Source of the DNA: Ashinkailepas kermadecensis | Lineage: Eukaryota; Arthropoda; Thecostraca; Neolepadidae | NCBI GenBank assembly: GCA_034440615.1 | Contig: JAOTOM010002640.1 | Location: forward strand, 48,246-112,245 | DNA: 64,000 nucleotides | Direction of reading: 5' to 3' | Shown here: in pieces, positions 18,101 to 60,195 of the stretch | How positions within the stretch are numbered: position 1 is the stretch's first letter | How the letters are laid out: each line of letters begins with the position of its first letter | Position numbers and translations under genes: made by a program | The notes under the pieces: generated by a model | Database searches by the model: none | Told to the model about the DNA's origin: nothing | Seen by the model: the letters and a program-made list of their open reading frames with translations, nothing else

Positions 18101-19240
18101 GTCTCCTCCCGCCCGGGCCACCTCGCACACTCGCCTGACACTCGCACACTCGCTTGGCACTCTGCCACTCGCCGCCGCAGCGGCGCCACCCCTGACCAGA
18201 CGATTGTGCCGCCACCTGGCTGCCAGCCGTGGCCATCCACCCGCCCCCGCCGCCGCCGCCGCCGCCGCTGCCGAGTAGCGCCACACCCGCCAAGAGGCGC
18301 GCGGTCACGGCAGGGGCGCGCCGCCGCCCGCCGCCGCGGCGCCAGGAAGATCTCAGCTTTGGTTTAGTCATATCCAACGATAAATAGTCATAAGTTATAG
18401 ACAATTGGCGGCGGCGTCTTGCCAATCAGTCGTGCTACTCTCGAACCTACCCACCCGACGCCCGCACGGCCGTCACCATACGGCGAGATTTCTCAAAAAC
18501 GGAAAGGACACACACACACAGCGGTCGCCGCGCACGCGCCGACCCGGATCACCACCAAATATTGTTGGCATTATATGGCAGCATTCAAAACAACAGTACA
18601 ACGCAATACTAGTTCCAGTAAAAGCTGCCCTCTGACCAACGATAGAGCGCATCTAAGATGCCACTTGACAGATAAAGCTTAGAGAAACAGTATCCTTTTC
18701 ACGTAAAAAAACATGACGTCGGACCCGGACCCCACCCCCGCCCGCCTCCACTCTCCCCCTCGCTGGCCGGGGCCAAGGGCCGCCATTACACGTGCCGGGC
18801 CGGCCGTCAGTCGGCGACCGGAGACCCCGCCCTCGCCCCCGCCCCAGCCCCAGCCCAACCGCACAGTCCACACTCGCGCCCGCTTGTGACTCGAAATTGC
18901 CCGTCGCGCACGCCGCCGGCGAAAACTAAAACGAGGCGCGCGCGAGCGCGCGTCTAGTCAGGTACTCTGGCGGCACGAGCAGCAACGCGCCGCCGACCCC
19001 ACACGACGCCACCGTCGGCGGCCGCAGACGGCGCCGTCAGCCGGTGGCCTCCACCGACTGCGAGGTGGAGCTCTCCTGGGGAACGGCGCGTCACGTCATC
19101 ACCTCCGACCACAGCCGCCGTCGCCGAACGGCGCGTCACGTCATCACCTCCGACCACAGCCGCCGTCGCCGAACGGCGCGTCACGTCATCACCTCCGACC
19201 ACAGCCGCCGTCGCCCAATCAAATCGAACACGCAACACCA
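18100..19240. other. Two CpG-rich blocks of unknown role
   Basis: GC-rich, CpG-dense blocks lie at about 18100-18345 and 18700-19240, separated by ordinary DNA. They have the look of promoter or CpG-island sequence but no start site or protein could be assigned. A triplicated 45-bp unit lies in the second block. Confidence 0.3.
19081..19215. repeat. Exact 45-bp tandem repeat, three copies
   Basis: Three identical units start at 19081, 19126 and 19171, each containing GCGTCACGTCATCACC, which includes a CRE/bZIP-like TCACGTCA core. The perfect identity implies a recent duplication. Confidence 0.9.
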
Positions 19241-20211
19241 TGCCAGCGATTCAGAAACTTTTCGGGACATTCACACTTCCACTTGTACAGAGCGCCTCAA
19301 CTCCTCCCCGCTGAAAACGTGGCGTGTTTTGAGTAATCACAGCACTCCTCTAAACACTGCTATTCTATGCCTTAACTGCCCCTTCCCCTAATGTTTGAGA
19401 ACAGACTACACCAAAATCTGAATGTTGACCGAGATTTCGTGGCAACTGTGTAGTAAGCCGAAGCTCTTCCGCGGTCTCTCAAATGTATTGAGGTCTTTTA
19501 AATGTACTAGGAGATACGAATATAATGGTAAGAACTACTGTCGACCATTATTAGACAGCGTAATACGGTGTTGAGATGCCTGTTCCCTGGATTGTGAATT
19601 GCACCCGTGTGACGTATGCCGCGCAGAATCGCCGGCCGGTGCCGCAATGAACCAGTCTCAACTGACTGCCACATATTACGATGCAACACCCACCTTCGCC
19701 ACATATTACAGCGCATCACCCACCTGCGCCACATTCTTCTGCATATGTCGCTGTCGGACCTCGCGTATTTTCAGGATCAACATTTGCTTGTTTGGGAACA
19801 GACTGACGTGGTGGTTCTGAAAGGTGGCGATCGCCTGACCTGCGGGTGCACGAGGGGCGAAGTCAGACACTGTACGAACTCAGCGCTCTCATGCAAGGGC
19901 AGGGTCAGAGCCTGCATATATTCGCCGCTCAGGCCGATGGACGGCGTCAGGGACTGCAGACACTCAACACCCGACCACGGGCAAAACCCAAGACCAGAGT
20001 GTGACTCCGCATGCAGCGAGTATCGGCTGTAATCGTCCATTCGGCATCGCCCCATGATTGCACAATCCACCATGATCATCTAGCGAGTCTGGCCGGACCG
20101 TGGCCTCAGCAGTCAGCTGCCGACAGTCGGCGCAGCTCGTCCACAAGGTCGGCGGTCACACTCGGCCACCCTCGCCACGGACCGGGCGGCGGCCACTGCC
20201 GGCGCACTCAC

Positions 20212-23003: not shown

Positions 23004-23326
23004 CTGTCCATGTCGTCCGGGCCGCGTCTGGAGGTGGCCGCGCCTGCGCCGGGGCCAGAGCCGGGGCCGGGGCCGGCCGAGCAGCTACCGGTGGCCGTGG
23101 CCGAGGCCGAGGCGGAGGCGGAGGCGGAGGCAGCCGCGGCAGGACGGCGCTCCTGCGAGGCGGACGTGCACGGCGGCGAGGCGAGCGCCGGCCAGTCGGC
23201 CGGCTCGCCGCCGCTGCCGGTCGAGCCGAGCCGGCGCTGCAGCGGCGCCTGGCCCAGCTGCGCCGGCGTCGGCGCCAGCACGAACGCGCCGCTGACGGCC
23301 GGCCGCTCGGGCGCCGGCATCCGCTC
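23004..23326 (-). CDS. cic: cic exon 15: FVLAPTPAQLG motif
   Basis: The 323-bp exon encodes AFVLAPTPAQLGQAPLQRRL, a short motif I associate with the C-terminal half of Capicua, followed by an Ala/Ser run (ASASASASATATG) and Gly/Pro-rich sequence ending RRGPDDMD. The acceptor is TTGCGGCAG and the donor is GGACAG|GTGGGG. The two leftover bases join the first base of exon 16 to give the arginine of R-V-L-E-Q-V. Confidence 0.88.
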
Positions 23327-23336
23327 CTGCCGCAAC

Positions 23337-23620
23337 GCGGCGCGTCGTGAGTGGAGAGGTGTGGAGTGGCGGCACGGCGAGGTGGAGAGGTGTGCAGAGG
23401 CGTCGCGGGTGGAGGGGTGTGCAGAGGCGGCGCGGCGGGGGTGGCTCGGCGTGGAGAGGCGGCACGGCGAGGGTCCGACACGTGGAGAGGAACACAGCAC
23501 AAGACGCACGTCGAGGGTCCGACATGTAATGACTACGTGGGGAGGAACACGGCACAGGACGCACGTCGTGGGTGGCTGGGTGTGGAGAGGCGGCACGGCG
23601 AGGGTCCATCCCCACCCCCC
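23337..23620. repeat. Degenerate G-rich repeat upstream of the cic exon 15 acceptor
   Basis: Imperfect repeats of GTGGAGAGGCGGCACGGCGA and GGGTCCGACA-type units fill the first 300 bp upstream (in the - sense) of exon 15. Confidence 0.6.
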
Positions 23621-26851: not shown

Positions 26852-26987
26852 AGGCCAGGTTCAGCTGGATGCCGTTTCCGGAGAGCAGCACGTTCTGCAG
26901 CTTGCCGTCGGGCGTCTGGACGGCCAGCGAGGAGACTAGGTACTGCACGGGCGGCCCGCCCGCCTTGGCGCCCGACGTCAGGATCGC
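26852..26987 (-). CDS. cic: cic exon 12 (copy of record for the 111-bp array)
   Basis: The 136-bp exon encodes AILTSGAKAGGPPVQYLVSS, LAVQTPDGKLQNVLLSGN and GIQLNLA. Family members have a comparable V-Q-Y-I/L-x-x-L segment. The acceptor is GTCGGCAG and the donor is GCCT|GTGAGT. Only this copy continues into PDGKLQNVLL and a donor. Ten further copies of its first 75 bp with the acceptor lie upstream in a 111-bp tandem array, so the real 5' boundary of the exon in mRNA could vary by multiples of 37 codons. Confidence 0.88.
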
Positions 26988-28134
26988 CTGCCGACACCGT
27001 GACGTGATCACTCCGACGTCACTCGTCTGGACGGCCAGCGAGGAGACTAGGTACTGCACGGGCGGCCCGCCCGCCTTGGCGCCCGACGTCAGGATCGCCT
27101 GCCGACACCGTGACGTGATCACTCCGACGTCACTCGTCTGGACGGCCAGCGAGGAGACTAGGTACTGCACGGGCGGCCCGCCCGCCTTGGCGCCCGACGT
27201 CAGGATCGCCTGCCGACACCGTGACGTGATCACTCCGACGTCACTCGTCTGGACGGCCAGCGAGGAGACTAGGTACTGCACGGGCGGCCCGCCCGCCTTG
27301 GCGCCCGACGTCAGGATCGCCTGCCGACACCGTGACGTGATCACTCCGACGTCACTCGTCTGGACGGCCAGCGAGGAGACTAGGTACTGCACGGGCGGCC
27401 CGCCCGCCTTGGCGCCCGACGTCAGGATCGCCTGCCGACACCGTGACGTGATCACTCCGACGTCACTCGTCTGGACGGCCAGCGAGGAGACTAGGTACTG
27501 CACGGGCGGCCCGCCCGCCTTGGCGCCCGACGTCAGGATCGCCTGCCGACACCGTGACGTGATCACTCCGACGTCACTCGTCTGGACGGCCAGCGAGGAG
27601 ACTAGGTACTGCACGGGCGGCCCGCCCGCCTTGGCGCCCGACGTCAGGATCGCCTGCCGACACCGTGACGTGATCACCCGACGTCACTCGTCTGGACGGC
27701 CAGCGAGGAGACTAGGTACTGCACGGGCGGCCCGCCCGCCTTGGCGCCCGACGTCAGGATCGCCTGCCGACACCGTGACGTGATCACTCCGACGTCACTC
27801 GTCTGGACGGCCAGCGAGGAGACTAGGTACTGCACGGGCGGCCCGCCCGCCTTGGCGCCCGACGTCAGGATCGCCTGCCGACACCGTGACGTGATCACTC
27901 CGACGTCACTCGTCTGGACGGCCAGCGAGGAGACTAGGTACTGCACGGGCGGCCCGCCCGCCTTGGCGCCCGACGTCAGGATCGCCTGCCGACACCGTGA
28001 CGTGATCACTCCGACGTCACTCGTCTGGACGGCCAGCGAGGAGACTAGGTACTGCACGGGCGGCCCGCCCGCCTTGGCGCCCGACGTCAGGATCGCCTGC
28101 CGACACCGTGACGTGATCACTCCGACGTCACTCG
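26907..28134 (-). repeat. 111-bp minisatellite carrying the cic exon 12 acceptor and coding sequence, 11 copies
   Basis: Units start (GTCTGGACGG) at 26914, 27025, 27136, 27247, 27358, 27469, 27580, 27690, 27801, 27912 and 28023. The spacing is 111 bp except for one 110-bp unit with a single-base deletion near 27677. On the - strand each unit holds GTCGGCAG, then the first 75 bp of exon 12, then 28 bp of intron. Copies are nearly identical. 111 bp equals 37 codons and the unit has no stop in frame, so the frame is open over the seven units nearest the exon and again over the four distal units. Confidence 0.97.
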
Positions 28135-28305
28135 CTGTCCGATCACGGCGCCGCACGCACGACAGGCGAGACCCGGCTGTTGCGTCTCAGCTGTACAGTC
28201 ATGCTCGCTTCCTGCGGCCAGGCGGTCAGGGAATTATCGTACTGGTGGTGGGTTGGACGGCTGCAGTGCCGTTCAGTGTCCACACCGTTGGGTCTTCTAA
28301 CACTG

Positions 28306-28589: not shown

Positions 28590-29036
28590 CACTCACCTGC
28601 AGCACCTGACTGACCTGCAAGGCCTGACTGACCTGCGGCCGTAATTGACCTGCGGGGGCGTGACTGACCTGCATGGGAGTGACTGATCTGCGGGGCCTGT
28701 CCGACCTGTGGTCGTGATTGACCTGCGAGGCTTGACTGACCTGCTGGCGCTACCGACCCATGGGAGTGACTGATCTGCGGGGCCTGCCCGACCTGTGGTC
28801 GTGATTGACCTGCGAGGCTTGAATGACTTGCTGGCGCTACCGACCCATGGGAGTGACTGACCTGCGGGGCCTGCCTGACCTGTGGTCGTGATTGACCTGC
28901 GAGGCTTGAATGACCTGCTGGCGCTACCGACTCATGGGCGTGACTGATCTGCGGGGCCTGCCCGACCTGTGGTCGTGATTGACCTGCGAGGCTTGAATGA
29001 CCTGCTGGCGCTACAGACTCATGAGGCGTGACTGAC
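28590..29036 (-). repeat. Array of splice-donor-like units at the cic exon 11 donor, about 22 copies
   Basis: On the - strand, CGCAG|GTCAGTCACGCC-type units of about 17-20 bp repeat from the true donor at 29037/29036 leftward, grouped into a higher-order unit near 88 bp. Most copies keep CAGGTCA; some have CAGATCA or CAAGTCA. Confidence 0.9.
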
Positions 29037-29642
29037 CTGCGGCGCCTGCTGTGAGGTGAGGATGACCTGACCGGGGCCGGCGGCGCCCGCCGGGCCCGTC
29101 TTCAGCACCAGGTTGGTCAGCTGGGCGGGCTGGCCGAGCCGCGGCACCGTGTTCAGGATGGCGTAGTGGGTGGCGGCCGGCTTGGCGGCGTCGCGCTGTG
29201 CCGCCGCCGGGCTGGCCGGCCGCTGCGGCCCGGGCGACATGGACTTAAACGCGCCGCCGGTCGGCTGGAAGCGGGCGGCGCGCGTGCTCGGACTGTAGGG
29301 CGGCACGTCGCCGGCGGACGGGCGCGCCTTGATGGGCTTGGGCCGCACGGCGGCGGCCGGCGCCGCCGCCGGCCGCCCCTCGGCGTCGCTCTCGTCCGTG
29401 TCGGCCACGTTCTCCTTGCAGATCAGGTCGATGTCGGCGGCGTCCTCGCAGATCACCATGCGCTCCTCGTCCGAGTCGGCGGCCAGCGAGTCGCGCCGCC
29501 GCCGCTCGTCGGCCGACCCGCGCCGCGCCGCCGCCGCCGCCGCGCCGTCCGGCTCCGCCTTCAGCGAGCTGCTCGACGACTTGCGCCGGTCCTTGGTGCA
29601 CCATTTCCACTCGGGGTGCGCCTTGAAGTGTGCCTCCTTCAC
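29037..29642 (-). CDS. cic: cic exon 11: end of HMG box and linker
   Basis: The 606-bp, phase 0/0 exon begins [20 protein letters not shown], completing the HMG region of Capicua. It then has [60 protein letters not shown] and [12 protein letters not shown], all in the order expected for the family. The acceptor is GTGCACCAG and the donor is CCGCAG|GTCAGT. The adjacent intron repeats this donor about 22 times. Confidence 0.97.
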
Positions 29643-39284: not shown

Positions 39285-39691
39285 GCCAGCGGCAGACCTC
39301 ACCTGGTGGTGGTGGTGGTGGTGGTGGTGGTGGTGGTGGTGGCTGTGGTTGCTGTCGCCACCAGCCAGGGCCAGACCTCACCTGGTGGTGGTGGTGGTGG
39401 TGGTGGTGGTGGTGATGGTTGTGGTTGCTGTGGCCACCAGCTAGGGCCAGACCTCACCTGATGGTGGTGGTGGTGGTGGTGGTGGTGGCTGTGGTTGCTG
39501 TCACCACCAGCCAGGGCCAGACCTCACCTGGTGGTGGTGGTGGTGGTGGTGGTGGTGGTGGTGGTGGTGGTGGTGGTGGTGATGGTTGTGGTTGCTGTGC
39601 CCACCAGCCAAGGCCAGACCTCACCTGCTGGTAGTGGTGGTGGTGGTGGTGGCTGTGGTTGCTGTGCCCACCAGCCAGGGCCAGACCTCAC
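39285..39691 (-). repeat. Array reiterating the cic exon 7 donor and histidine codons, 6 copies
   Basis: On the - strand each unit reads CACAGCAACCACAACC, CAC repeats, CAG|GTGAGGTCTGG, then CCAGGGC/TGGCTGGTGG. Donor positions (CTCACCTG on +) fall near 39300, 39378, 39454, 39523, 39621 and at the true junction 39691. CAC-repeat length varies between units. Confidence 0.93.
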
Positions 39692-39867
39692 CTGGTGGTG
39701 GTGGTGGTGATGGTTGTGGTTGCTGTGGCCGTTGTGGCCGCCGGACGAGGACGGTGGCGGCTGGCGGTCGGCGGCGACGTCGCCCGCCGCCGCCAGATCG
39801 CTCGGCTTCAGGTACGGTATCAGAGAGTGCCAGGCGTACACGTGGCCACCGCCCTCCGGCGGCGCAC
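39692..39867 (-). CDS. cic: cic exon 7: ataxin-1-binding-type peptide and histidine run
   Basis: The 176-bp exon encodes GGGHVYAWHSLIPYLKPSD, equivalent to the W-H-S-L-V-P-F-L peptide of the N-terminus of the short vertebrate isoform, which contacts ataxin-1. It ends in NHNHHHHHHQ just before the donor CACCAG|GTGAGG. The acceptor is CCGTCAG. Both the acceptor and the histidine-coding end plus donor are reiterated in flanking arrays. Confidence 0.93.
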
Positions 39868-40090
39868 CTGACGGCAGGTCACCGACAGGTCAAGTCAGGT
39901 CAGCGGCCGACCTGGAGCAGGTCACCGACAGGTCAGGTCAGCGGCCGACCTGAAAGCAGGTCATCGACAGGTCAGACCATCGGCGCACCTAAGCGCATGT
40001 CATCGATCGACAGGTCGGGTCAGCAACAGAGCTGAGGACAGGTCACCGACAGGTCAAGTCATCGACGCACCTGAGGGCAGGTCACTGCCA
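39868..40090 (-). repeat. Array reiterating the cic exon 7 acceptor, about 3-4 copies
   Basis: CGGCGCACCT (AG|GTGCGCCG on the - strand) recurs near 39861, 39983 and 40067. Between copies lie CAGGTCACCGACAGGTCA-type repeats. Confidence 0.7.
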
Positions 40091-40346: not shown

Positions 40347-40689
40347 GTCTCTCCCTGCCACTCTCAGCTGCCCCGTTTTTTGCCGACGACCCATTGACGT
40401 GGTGCGGCTGCTCGGAGAAGTCGTGCTGCTGCTCCTGCTGCAGCAGCTGGGCCTGCTGCTCTTGCTGCAGCAGCTGCTGCTGTGGCAGCGGAGGCGGCGG
40501 CAGCGGTGGCGGCAGCGACGGAGGCGGCGGCCGGGCCGTGCTCAAGTCAACGCCACACGTGGGCGCCGTCAGGGCCTGCTGCAGCAGCGCCGGCTGCTGA
40601 CGGCGCGGAGCCGACACCGACTGCGGCACCACCACCGACTGCGGCATCACCACCTTGCTGACCTGGATCGGACGCTGCAGCCGCGGCTC
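40347..40689 (-). CDS. cic: cic exon 6: glutamine/proline-rich
   Basis: The 343-bp exon begins EPRLQRPIQVSKVVMPQSVV, continues through a poly-proline run and a glutamine/leucine run (QQQLLQQEQQAQLLQQEQQ), and ends with VNGSSAKNG. The acceptor is CGTCACCAG and the donor is AGAC|GTGAGT. The donor leaves one base, which joins GT of exon 7 (CGT, Arg). Copies of the acceptor and the first bases of the exon form the array at 40690-41070. Confidence 0.88.
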
Positions 40690-41070
40690 CTGGTGACGTA
40701 CAGGTGTGTCACGACGACTCCTGATGACATACAGGACTGGCACGGGTCCTGGTGACGTACAGGCCTGTCACGGCTACAAGCGACATACAGGCTTGTCACG
40801 GCTCCTGGTGGCGTACAGGTGTCGCGGCTACTAGTGACGCATAGGCCTGTCACGGCTCCTGGTGACACACAGGCCTGTCACAACTACTTGCAACATACAG
40901 GCCTGTCACATCGGACGGTCACAGCTCCTGGTGACATACGGACCTGTCACAGCTGAAAGTCACAGCTCCCGGAAACACACAGATCTGTCACAGCGGACGG
41001 TCACACCTCCCGATGACATACGGGCCTGCGCTGCCGGCAACATACAGATCTGCCACAGCGCAGAGCCGCG
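40690..41070 (-). repeat. Array reiterating the cic exon 6 acceptor, about a dozen copies
   Basis: On the - strand the unit is CCTGTACGTCACCAG|GAGCC followed by GTGACAGG, period about 32 bp. The copy at 40690 is the true acceptor. Confidence 0.88.
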
Positions 41071-43555: not shown

Positions 43556-44139
43556 ACTTCATCTGGGAGCGGTACTGGACCTCACCTGACGATCTGGGAG
43601 CAGCACCGGACCTCACCTGATGATCTGGGAGCGGTACTGGACCTCGCCTGACGACTGGGAGCGGTACCGGACCTCACCTGACGATCTGGGAGCGGTACTG
43701 GACCTCACCTGACGATCTGGGAGCGGTACCGGACCTCACCTGACGATCTGGGAGCGGTACTTCATCTCACCTGATGATCTGGGAGCGGTACCGGACCTCA
43801 CCTGATGATCTGGGAGCGGTACCAGACCTCACCTGATGTCTGGGAGCGGTACCGGACCTCACCTGACGATCTGGGAGCGGTACTGGACCTCACCTGATGA
43901 TCTGGGAGCGGTACCAGACCTCACCTGATGTCTGGGAGCGGTACTGGACCTCACCTTACGATCTGGGAGCGGTACCGGACCTCACCTGATGTCTGGGAGC
44001 GGTACCGGACCTCGTCTGACGACCTGGGAGCGGTACCGGACCTCACCTGATGATCTGGGAGAGGTACCGGACCTCACCTGATGATCTGTGAACGGTACCG
44101 GACCTCACCTGACGATCTGTGAACGGTACCGGACCTCAC
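43555..44139 (-). repeat. Array reiterating the cic exon 4 end and donor, 19 copies including the real one
   Basis: On the - strand each 29-32-bp unit is TACCGCTCCCAGATCATCAG|GTGAGGTCCGG: 20 bp of exon end plus donor plus 11 bp of intron. Donor-like CTCACCTG(A) recurs about every 31 bp from 43580 to the true junction at 44139. A few copies have lost the exact GT (CTCGCCTG, CTCACCTTA, CTCGTCTG). Confidence 0.95.
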
Positions 44140-44332
44140 CTGATGATCTGGGAGCGGTACTGGACGGGCAGCTGGGCGCGGTGCGGACTCAGCTGCCAGC
44201 GGCCGCCAGAGGCCACCGCCGGCCCCTGCGGGATCGGCCGGAAGTGGTGCTGCGTGGCCGCCGGCGGCACCGGCGACGGCGGGTTCGAGGCCGAGAACGC
44301 CGGCGTCGTCGACCTCGAGTTGCCCAGCGACA
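44140..44332 (-). CDS. cic: cic exon 4
   Basis: The 193-bp exon encodes SLGNSRSTTPAFSASNPPSP and HHFRPIPQGP, ending VQYRSQII. S-L-G-N/S-S-R-S-x-T-P is conserved in Capicua-L. The acceptor is GTCGCCAG and the donor is CATCAG|GTGAGG. The last 20 or so bases and the donor are the repeat unit of the adjacent 19-copy array (43555-44139). Confidence 0.93.
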
Positions 44333-54046: not shown

Positions 54047-54194
54047 CTGGGCGTGGCGGTCTGGGAGCGGGCCGTGCCCAGACTGCCGTGCTCGTTGAGG
54101 CTGGACGTGCTGCCTCTCGAGTGCATGGTGGAGCGCTTCACCTGCACCAGCGAGCCAGGCGTCAGGCTGAGCGAGCGGCTGCCGGGCGCCAGAC
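54047..54194 (-). CDS. cic: cic exon 1 of those visible (long-isoform, serine-rich)
   Basis: The acceptor is TTCGGCAG at its 5' side and the donor is CCCAG|GTACGT. The exon is 148 bp and starts two bases into a codon, so at least one earlier exon must exist. It encodes LAPGSRSLSLTPGSLVQ and RGSTSSLNEHGSLGTARS, comparable to the serine-rich stretch just before the cysteine block of the long Capicua isoform. It ends with two bases (AG) completed by the G opening the next exon to give arginine. Confidence 0.8.
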
Positions 54195-54499: not shown

Positions 54500-55750
54500 G
54501 ACAGCGGAAGCCGGCCAAGTGTGGCGGGGACGGCGGGGACTGAGGAAGCCGGCCAAGTGTGGCGGGGACGGCGGGGACTGAGGAAGCCGGCCAAGTGTGG
54601 CGGGGACGGCGGGGACTGAGGAAGCCGGCCAAGTGTGGCGGGGACGGCGGGGACTGAGGAAGCCGGCCAAGTGTGGCGTGGACGGCGGGGACTGAGGAAG
54701 CCGGCCAAGTGTGGCGTGGACGGCGGGGACTGAGGAAGCCGGCCAAGTGTGGCGGGGACGGCGGGGACTGAGGAAGCTGGCCAAGTGTGGCGACGGCGGG
54801 GACTGAGGAAGCCGGCCAAGTGTGGCGTGGACGGCGGGGACTGAGGAAGCCGGCCAAGTGTGGCGGGGCGGCGGGGACTGAGGAAGCCGGCCAAGTGTGG
54901 CGTGGACGGCGGGGACTAGAAGCCGGCCAAGTGTGGCGTGGACGGCGGGGACTGAGGAAGCCGGCCAAGTGTGGCGTGGACGGCGGGGACTGAGGAAGCC
55001 GGCCAAGTGTGGCGGACGCGGGGACGGCGGGGACGGGGAGGAAGCCGGCCAAGTGTGGCGGGGACGGCGGGGACTGAGGAAGCCGGCCAAGTGTGGCGTG
55101 GACGGCGGGGACTGAGGAAGCCGGCCAAGTGTGGCGTGGACGGCGGGGACTGAGGAAGCCGGCCAAGTGTGGCGGGGACGGCGGGGACTGAGGAAGCCGG
55201 CCAAGTGTGGCGTGGACGGCGGGGACTGAGGAAGCCGGCCAAGTGTGGCGTGGACGGCGGGGACTGAGGAAGCCGGCCAAGTGTGGCGTGGACGGCGGGG
55301 ACTGAGGAAGCCGGCCAAGTGTGGCGGGGACGGCGGGGACTGAGGAAGCCGGCCAAGTGTGGCGGGGACGGCGGGGACTGAGGAAGCCGGCCAAGTGTGG
55401 CGTGGACGGCGGGGACTGAGGAAGCCGGCCAAGTGTGGCGGGGACGGCGGGGACTGAGGAAGCCGGCCAAGTGTGGCGGGGACGGCGGGGACTGAGGAAG
55501 CCGGCCAAGTGTGGCGGGGACGGCGGGGACTGAGGAAGCCGGCCAAGTGTGGCGGGGACGGCGGGGACTGAGGAAGCCGGCCAAGTGTGGCGGGGACGGC
55601 GGGGACTGAGGAAGCCGGCCAAGTGTGGCGGGGACGGCGGGGACTGAGGAAGCCGGCCAAGTGTGGCGTGGACGGCGGGGACTGAGGAAGCCGGCCAAGT
55701 GTGGCGGGGACGGCGGGGACTGAGGAAGCCGGCCAAGTGTGGCGTGGACG
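54500..55750. repeat. 38-bp minisatellite, about 33 copies
   Basis: Unit GAAGCCGGCCAAGTGTGGCG, GGGACGGCGGGGACTGAG with a G/T variant (GGGGAC/GTGGAC) alternating between copies. On the - strand each unit contains GGCTTCCTCAG, an acceptor-like string, but no exon is attached to it. The - strand stays open for nearly 500 codons, which is an artefact. Confidence 0.95.
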
Positions 55751-55908
55751 GCGGCAGCGGCCGAGCCGCGTCGCGTCGCCTGTTCAACAGCGGTAGTGCA
55801 TCAAACGCATCCGTCGCGGTGGCATTGTCATTCGCGGCGGCGCCACTAGCACGATGGCTCGTGGCCGAGGTGCGTGCACGCAGTTAGTTAGTTATTTGGG
55901 CTTAAGGG

Positions 55909-57115: not shown

Positions 57116-57460
57116 GCACACGGATATTTCGTACAAAGAGATGGGGGAGCTTTACCGAAATGATGAGCTCAAGCGGTTTCGAACTCGACTTGATCTGGTG
57201 TGCTACCTGGGCAGCCGGGTTCAGGGTGGAAGTCAGTTGGAAGGAGGAGCGGATCAAGCCCCTCGACACAAGTCAAATTCCACCCATTTGGGAGCAGAAT
57301 TTGGTGACGATTGTGATCATTCGTCGGGTCGGGATGGCCGGCCAGCCAGTTCGTCCGTCCATGCAAACACAGGAAGCACATCATGCTCTATCACCCGTGA
57401 TGAGCTCACAGTTGGCGGCCATGGCTGCCGGCGCGACGCTCTTGGTAACAGCTGACGCCG
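57116..57460. other. No gene recognised
   Basis: Interval between two arrays. Open on + but without family motifs. Confidence 0.3.
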
Positions 57461-57464
57461 GGGC

Positions 57465-60195
57465 CGAGTCGTGTCAGCCCACCCACGCACGGTGGATCAG
57501 CCGGGGCCGAGTCGTGTCAGCCCACCCACGCACGGTGGATCAGCCGGGGCCGAGTCGTGTCAGCCCACCCACACACGGTGGATCAGCCGGGGCTGAGTCG
57601 TGTCAGCCCACCCACACACGGTGGATCAGCCGGGGCCGAGTCGTGTCAGCCCACCCACGCACGGTGGATCAGCCGGGGCTGAGTCGTGTCAGCCCACCCA
57701 CACACGGTGGATCAGCCGGGGCTGAGTCGTGTCAGCCCACCCACGCACGGTGGATCAGCCGGGGCCGAGTCGTGTCAGCCCACCCACGCACGGTGGATCA
57801 GCCGGGGCTGAGTAGTATCCTCCCACCCCCCACACGGCGGATCAGCCGGGGCTGAGTCGTGTCACCCCCACCCCCCACACGGCGGATCAGCCGGGGCTGA
57901 GTCGTGTCAGCCCACCCACGCACGGTGGATCAGCCGGGGCCGAGTCGTGTCAGCCCACCCACACACAGCGGATCAGCCGGGGCCGAGTCGTATCAGCCCT
58001 CCCCGCCTCCCACACACGGCGGATCAGCCGGGGCCGAGTCGTGTCAGCCCACCCACGCACGGTGGATCAGCCGGGGCTGAGTCGTATCAGCTCACCCACA
58101 CACAGCGGATCAGCCGGGGCCGAGTCGTGTCAGCCCACCCACACACGGTGGATCAGCCGGGGCTGAGTAGTATCACCCCCTCCCACACACCCAGGCACGG
58201 CGAATCAGCCGGGGCCGAGTCGTGTCAGCCCACCCACACACGGTGGATCAGCCGGGGCTGAGTAGTATCACCCCCCCTCCCACACACCAAGGCACGGCGA
58301 TTCAGCCGGGGCTGAGTCGTATCAGCCCTCCCCCCGCCTCCCACACACGGCGGATCAGCCGGGGCTGAGTCGTGTCAGCCCACCCACGCACGGTGGATCA
58401 GCCGGGGCTGAGTAGTATCACCCCCCCTCCCACACACCAAGGCACGGCGATTCAGCCGGGGCTGAGTCGTATCAGCCCTCCCCCGCCTCCCACACACGGC
58501 GGATCAGCCGGGCTGAGTCGTGTCACCCCCCCTCCCACACACGGCGGATCAGCCGGGCTGAGTCGTGTCACCCCCTCCCACACACGGCGGATCAGCCGGG
58601 GCTGAGTAGTATCAGCCCCCCTCCCACACACGGCGGATCAGCCGGGGCTGAGTCGTGTCCCCCTCCCACACACGGCGGATCAGCCGGGGCTGAGTCGTGT
58701 CACCCCCTCCCACACACGGCGGATCAGCCGGGGCTGAGTCGTATCAGCCCCCCTCCCACACACGGCGGATCAGCCGGGACTGAGTCGTATCAGCTCCCCC
58801 TCCCACACACGGCGGATCAGCCGGGGCTGAGTCGTGTCACCCCCCCCTCCCACACGGCGGATCAGCCGGGACTGAGTCGTATCAGCCCCCCCCACTCCCA
58901 CACACGGCGGATCAGCCGGGGCTGAGTCGTGTCACTCCCACCCCCACACACGGCGGATCAGCCGGGACTGAGTCGTATCAGCCTCCTCCCACACACTGCG
59001 GATCAGCCGGGACTGAGTCGTATCAGCCTCCTCCCACACACGGCGGATCAGCCGGGACTGAGTCGTATCAGCTCACCCACACACGGCGGATCAGCCGGGG
59101 CTGAGTCGTATCAGCCCCCCCCCCCACACGGCGGATCAGCCGGGGCTGAGTCGTGTCACTCCCACCCCCACACGGCGGATCAGCCGGGGCTGAGTCGTAT
59201 CAGCTCACCCCTCCCCACACGGCGGATCAGCCGGGGCTGAGTCGTATCAGCCCCCCCCCCCCCCCACACGGCGGATCAGCCGGGACTGAGTCGTATCAGC
59301 TCACCCACACGGCGGATCAGCCGGGGCTGAGTCGTGTCACTCCCACCCCCACACACGGCGGATCAGCCGGGGCTGAGTCGTATCAGCTCACCCTCTCCCA
59401 CACACGGCGGATCAGCCGGGGCTGAGTCGTATCAGCCCCCCTCCCACACACGGCGGATCAGCCGGGGCTGAGTAGTATCAGCCCCCTCCCACACACGGCG
59501 GATCAGCCGGGGCTGAGTCGTGTCAGCCCCCTCCCACACGGCGGATCAGCCGGGGCTGAGTCGTATCAGCCCCCTCCCCACACGGCGGATCAGCCGGGAC
59601 TGAGTCGTATCAGCTCCCCTCCCACACACGGCGGATCAGCCGGGGCTGAGTCGTGTCACCCCCCTCCCACACACGGCGGATCAGCCGGGACTGAGTCGTA
59701 TCAGCCTCCTCCCACACACGGCGGATCAGCCGGGACTGAGTCGTATCAGCTCACCCACACACGGCGGATCAGCCGGGGCTGAGTCGTGTCACTCCCACCC
59801 CCACACACGGCGGATCAGCCGGGGCTGAGTCGTATCAGCTCACCCTCCACACACGGCGGATCAGCCGGGGCTGAGTCGTATCAGCCCCCTCCCCACACGG
59901 CGGATCAGCCGGGACTGAGTCGTATCAGCTCACCCACACACGGCGGATCAGCCGGGGCTGAGTCGTGTCACTCCCACCCCCCACACGGCGGATCAGCCGG
60001 GGCTGAGTCGTATCAGCTCACCCTCTCCCACACACGGCGGATCAGCCGGGGCTGAGTCGTATCAGCCCCCCCTCCCCCACACGGCGGATCAGCCGGGGCT
60101 GAGTCGTGTCACTCCCACCCCCCACACGGCGGATCAGCCGGGGCTGAGTCGTGTCACTCCCACCCCCCACACGGCGGATCAGCCGGGGCTAGGCG
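57465..60195. repeat. Large minisatellite, unit about 36-46 bp, roughly 65 copies
   Basis: Unit GGATCAGCCGGGGCTGAGTC, GTGTCAGCCCACCCACGCAC, GG. The GATCAGCCGGGGCTGAGTCG part is conserved. The C-rich part varies in length (CCCACCC to C-runs), so the period drifts. The left third is mostly C-A-C-G-C-A, the right mostly C-A-C-A-C-G-G. Confidence 0.95.

Follow-up and report, generated by a model that had tools for sequence, protein, structure and literature searches.

A tandem array at an acceptor of capicua in the barnacle Ashinkailepas kermadecensis is probably a minisatellite derived from an intron-exon border

The 64,000-nucleotide stretch of Ashinkailepas kermadecensis DNA analyzed here (the window) carries the gene capicua (cic) on its minus strand, and the 5' part of the eleventh exon of our cic model is repeated, together with its splice acceptor, in a tandem array (A11; Table 1). 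At a probability of about 0.8, we regard A11 as a minisatellite that grew from the intron-exon border, a structure known as a "mirage" or "exon stuttering", with the proximal acceptor likely used and the extra acceptors predicted to be spliced out. We favor this reading because the orthologue of another barnacle has a single copy of the repeated stretch and because other border arrays occur in cic and elsewhere in the assembly. A11 is thus one of many splice-border arrays in the gene and the genome, the others of which did not figure in a preliminary description of the locus.

Results

The cic gene model

The cic model comprises 19 hand-placed exons between positions 54194 and 19037. The model is partial: it begins at 54194 and leaves the exon 3 acceptor without placement, while exon 13 was placed by frame and splice sites alone and homology support for exon 12 comes from P0121 only, a fragment of the capicua protein of another barnacle, Amphibalanus amphitrite. 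When the proximal A11 copy is included, exons 3-19 form a single open frame of 1,051 residues to the stop codon. Identification as cic is based on a protein search in which 387 of 7,983 scored candidates reached E 0.001 or better, many of the best 120 of these 387 being named capicua. It is also based on matches of the translated sequence to the N-terminal domain, the HMG box and the C-terminal motifs. In a tree of 46 sequences (support values not displayed) the window's cic is placed among crustaceans, beside an ostracod. A separate protein search with model residues 495-640 gave no match at E 0.001. Arrays occupy 21% of the cic span.

Structure of array A11

TRF reports A11 with a period of 111, 11.0 copies and 99% matches, and comparison of the units confirmed the 11-fold amplification of the exon's 5' part and acceptor that the preliminary description had put forward; gene, exon and AG acceptor had also been named correctly, its "exon 12" being the 11th exon of our partial model. 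The exonic parts of the units start, on the minus strand, at 28096, 27985, 27874, 27763, 27653, 27542, 27431, 27320, 27209, 27098 and 26987. Ten units are complete, nine of them identical 111-mers and one of 110 bp that lacks a single A on the minus strand near 27677, and they are followed by a final partial unit formed by the start of the real exon 11. Each unit joins 75 nt of exon (25 codons) to 36 nt with TGTCGGCAG at its end. The flanks are unique, and the two ends of the array have a 2-bp CG in common. Since the units are nearly identical, recent expansion or homogenization is indicated, as had been proposed. The terminal units are the same as the inner ones and so show no escape from homogenization, unlike those of amphioxus BflGb6, where such escape is reported as a tendency of mirages and does not define them.

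The array itself is beyond chance. A unit length that is a multiple of three, together with 12 intronic codons free of stops, is unsurprising (roughly 1/3 x 1/2 by our own arithmetic). The 36-nt intronic piece of every unit contains an inverted repeat, GTGACGT...ACGTCAC. The last two units had an ordinary predicted RNA structure (z -0.17), and comparison with a phage collection gave no match.

Table 1. Features of the cic locus discussed in the text (window coordinates)
Feature	Position	Strand	Basis
Exon 10, joined to exon 11 in the model	29037..29642	-	Gene model; colinear with P0121
Exon 11; first 75 nt are the proximal A11 copy, remainder unique	26852..26987	-	Frame, splice sites, orthologue P0121
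Exon-proximal acceptor AG of exon 11, predicted to be used	26988..26989	-	Frame kept, orthologue match
Border array A11: 111-bp unit x 11 (75 nt exon + 36 nt with AG acceptor); one unit 110 bp	26913..28134	-	TRF and unit comparison
Border array D3: 31-bp unit x 19.6, exon 3 donor (CAG/GTGAGG)	43561..44165	-	TRF, gene model
Border array A5: 28-bp unit x 8, exon 5 acceptor (CACCAG/GAGCC), 6 nt exon	40684..40909	-	TRF, gene model
Border array A6: units of about 38-43 bp, exon 6 acceptor, 9 nt exon	39859..40085	-	TRF, gene model
Border array D6: units of about 67-97 bp, exon 6 donor (CACCAG/GTGAGG)	39285..39719	-	TRF, gene model
Border array D10: 87-bp unit x 4.3 (shorter sub-periods), exon 10 donor (CGCAG/GTCAGT)	28591..29049	-	TRF, gene model
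Border array D18: 30-bp unit x 2.2, exon 18 donor	19668..19734	-	TRF, gene model
Array abutting the last exon's acceptor: 45-bp unit x 3.0, 6 bp off, no span	19081..19215	-	TRF, gene model
Array near the exon 14 acceptor: 27/32-bp units, about 11 bp upstream, no span	23337..23474	-	TRF, gene model

Acceptors and reading frame

All 11 acceptors of A11 are identical and have the 20-nt upstream context in common. In silico, splicing to any of acceptors 5-11 preserves the frame as far as the stop codon and gives products of 1,051-1,273 residues with 1-7 copies, while acceptors 1-4, which belong to the four distal units, are out of frame and lead to premature stops. These results bear out two further statements of the preliminary description, namely that the 37-residue unit is open with the nearest seven acceptors in frame, and that a one-base deletion near 27677 shifts the four distal units. 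With the exon-proximal acceptor the reading frame stays intact across the proximal copy, and from the sequence we consider it likely that this acceptor is used and that the ten extra acceptors are spliced out with the intron. Counting against its use are its low score and the presence of stronger sites in the same intron: with a matrix built from the gene's other 17 acceptors (left-out scores of 0.5 to 15.4), each A11 acceptor scores 3.8 bits, fifth lowest among 18, and 14 of the intron's 153 AG sites exceed this value, the highest being 10.2 at 28211. In its favor, the acceptor ends in TCGGCAG, the same as the acceptors of exons 1, 7, 8 and 9.

Orthologues over the exon 11 edge

The nearest match over exons 10-12 is P0121 (286 residues, 59% identical), which is colinear with these exons and has a single copy of the stretch repeated in A11. 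Its sequence there is GQVILSPQQGSQAAGSSSVQYLVSSLAVQTADGKL, which runs colinearly from exon 10 into the proximal A11 copy; VQYLVSSLAVQT occurs in P0121 once, with ADGKL, from the unique part of the exon, immediately after it. In a multiple alignment, three tick sequences also match over the exon 11 edge (Ixodes, VQYLLPSSISLQPSPAGVKSVLQMAIPSGSIQLG), and a comparable single motif is present in these ticks, a shrimp and a cockroach, the last two found by pattern only. Artemia, Tigriopus, Cherax and Halocaridina gave no alignment over exon 11 in the multiple alignment, and alignments of insect sequences were uninformative for this exon. When the repeated A11 reading served as the query of a protein search, P0121 alone was retrieved (E 2.3), and no repeat-bearing protein.

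Other border arrays of cic

Seven of the 36 splice junctions of cic (four donors, three acceptors) lie inside tandem arrays, and two more lie within 15 bp of one (Table 1). The spanning arrays reach 6-75 nt into exons, and many copies in D3 retain the donor motif. Exon 6 is flanked on both sides, with one border array at its acceptor and another at its donor.

In six of the seven border arrays, use of the duplicate sites would result in a frameshift or a stop. At the exon 3 donor a stop starts 1 nt into the intron, and at the exon 10 and exon 18 donors a stop follows 15 nt downstream. The exon 6 donor has two duplicate donors ahead of the first stop (165 nt), both out of frame; upstream of the exon 5 and exon 6 acceptors, in-frame stops occur at 81 and 25 nt, respectively, with no frame-keeping duplicate found within these distances. 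A11 alone would add whole 37-residue repeats, and chance can explain its open, in-frame unit as an exception among seven. Free use of duplicate sites would break cic, and because the duplicates at the six other border arrays would be harmful if used, the gene must generally ignore such sites.

Border arrays in the wider genome

An exon-against-intron screen of cic that followed the design of the bird study yielded 47 proximal and 8 distal matches above the best of 20 shuffles. The matches come from exon edges in three introns, and part of those from exon 6 are CAC repeats. Among 23 arrays in cic, the seven that span a junction compare with 2.0 expected under a limit of 80 exonic nt (P 0.002, 2,000 placements) and with 1.2 expected under a limit of 40 exonic nt (none of 2,000). 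When no exonic limit is imposed the excess is weak (7 vs 4.8 expected, P 0.15), and arrays spanning or within 15 bp of a junction then number 9 against 5.4 expected (P 0.04).

The assembly sampled has 907,663,968 bases in 4,689 contigs, and 70 of 138 kinase-domain matches were examined, some of which share a contig and are perhaps the same gene. In this sample the edges of HMM matches are taken to stand for exon borders, and the edges of whole-domain matches may not be borders. In ten of the 70 loci an array repeats the edge of an exon at the splice site: six clear cases among the first 50 (donors L015, L027 and L044; acceptors L028, L036 and L046) and four among the further 20 (donors L063, L070 and L073; acceptor L075). 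Units in these ten arrays are 32-90 bp long. In L027 and L073 the best copies listed have 98-100% identity, as in A11. We did not count L032, with only 6 nt of overlap; L043, L048, L049 and L074, with the array beside the match edge; L077, with an array up to the acceptor and an unclear match edge; or L007, L020, L021 and L030, with weak copies. Loci L002-L031 were screened in contig orientation, which has no effect on same-strand copies, and L015, L027, L028, L032, L036, L044 and L046 were viewed in gene orientation.

Border-crossing arrays were without clear excess in the kinase loci, at 7 of 115 arrays vs 4.6 expected (P 0.16) in the first 50 and 5 of 32 vs 4.3 expected in the further 20. 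As cic supports a targeting of borders under restricted placement only and the kinase samples have no excess, we make no claim of targeting. Nor do we put forward base composition as a cause. Within the window, GC correlates with arrays in 4-kb bins (rho 0.84; 0.52 with arrays masked), and this did not hold across the 50 kinase loci, of which arrays cover on average 15% (rho -0.11, P 0.47).

Discussion

Origin and tolerance of A11

Growth of A11 as a border minisatellite may have started with a tandem duplication across the border, whose ends share the 2-bp CG, and proceeded by slippage or unequal exchange; its uniformity would reflect recent expansion or gene conversion. The copy beside the intact exon would still give the correct splice, and such arrays are therefore likely tolerated. 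The predicted rule is that splicing takes whichever site lies closest to the exon body – the last acceptor or the first donor – as in exon definition. The simplest account is a minisatellite-rich genome in which exon borders are permitted sites.

The preliminary description went further and raised the possibility that the repeats reach the protein. In such a ladder of in-frame acceptors, some of the six next acceptors would also be used, adding one to six 37-residue repeats to CIC with heritable length variation. The sequence agrees with this to the extent that acceptors 5-10 are in frame and meet no stop and local sequence is the same at every A11 acceptor, so that protein-length variation from the array is possible. 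We nevertheless find such use unlikely and the proposal unsupported: the P0121 orthologue has one copy, the ticks, shrimp and cockroach have a single motif, the duplicates at the six other border arrays would frameshift or truncate the product, and the search with the repeated reading returned no repeat-bearing protein. Were the ladder to operate at appreciable rates, which we judge slightly less probable again, six upstream acceptors would allow one cic allele to provide graded repressors with one to seven VQYLV repeats, unit number would act as a heritable length dial drifting fast by unequal exchange, and border arrays genome-wide would form a standing source of isoforms.

An array inflated or invented in assembly could account for the near-identity of the A11 units; given the unique flanks, the one distinct 110-bp unit and the many comparable arrays with diverged units in cic and other contigs, we hold this to be very improbable. 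A search of the assembly for a second haplotype, which bears on copy-number variation and not on this reading, placed A11 once, and exon 10 in one full-length place with nine short partial matches. Least probable of all, by a small step, is that border arrays are kept because spare splice sites improve splicing. The junction excess in cic under restricted placement and the donor motifs kept by many D3 copies are in keeping with such selection, but the kinase loci have no clear excess and the duplicates would mostly be harmful if used.

Relation to known systems

The mirages of amphioxus and the exon stuttering of birds are the same kind of structure as the cic arrays. In amphioxus, passages on Adh3, TnC, the globins BflGb6 and BflGb9, and PGBD5 describe minisatellite-like tandem duplications over exon-intron borders, at donors and acceptors, with copies that carry AG/GT and units of 10-160 bp (PMC3087553; PMC3902484), and regular splicing is described as intact (PMC3087553). 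The cic repeats likewise cover acceptors and donors, both of which are also affected in the kinase loci. Unlike the amphioxus cases, which concern few reported genes of a chordate, they occur in a barnacle and at seven borders of one gene, and the A11 unit is open and in frame. In birds, the passages on stuttering describe how the edge of an exon, splice site included, is present in many copies within the neighboring intron, alongside arrays confined to introns; the phenomenon is tied there to GC-rich dot chromosomes, and gerbils are also mentioned, with data not shown (PMC12954441). The bird paper contains no "Branchiostoma" and has "amphioxus" only within a reference (PMC12954441). The cic gene resembles the bird case in its exon-edge copies in adjacent introns above shuffled controls. 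Array cover correlates with GC within the window and shows no relation to it in the 50 kinase loci, which suggests a difference from the GC-tied bird arrays.

Intron gain by tandem duplication, in the case outlined in PMC4974935, also began with a duplication across an intron-exon border, as in A11, and a new intron arose; in contrast, the cic model needs no new intron, with only 36 non-exonic nt between exon copies. Internal tandem repeats in human segmental duplications are described as minisatellites that alter exon/intron limits, and many have transcript support (PMC2812944), whereas the cic arrays are known here from DNA. Passages of two barnacle genome papers do not mention border arrays (PMC8270832, PMC8917513), and a literature search that covered mainly open papers, judged by titles, abstracts and passages, brought up no arthropod case that we recognized. 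As far as these partial sources and searches showed, splice-border minisatellites had so far been described from lancelets, birds and gerbils (the last with data not shown).

Occurrence at several borders of cic and in about one in seven kinase loci suggests a mutational mode that is widespread or arises repeatedly. Border arrays would mislead gene prediction through false exons and false frameshifts, and could serve as raw material for alternative splicing. With 11 same-context acceptors in one intron, A11 would constitute a natural experiment, one that could show whether order of synthesis or proximity to the exon governs the spliceosome's choice, and a clean test of choice among identical splice sites.

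Tandem repeats of the window also lie away from splice junctions. Three short arrays are wholly within cic coding exons (40615-40654, 40484-40531 and 23089-23131), with units of 18, 15 and 12 (6) bp, each divisible by three. Large minisatellites occur upstream of the modelled exons, at 54506-55754 (38 bp x 33) and 57457-60190 (43 bp x 60).
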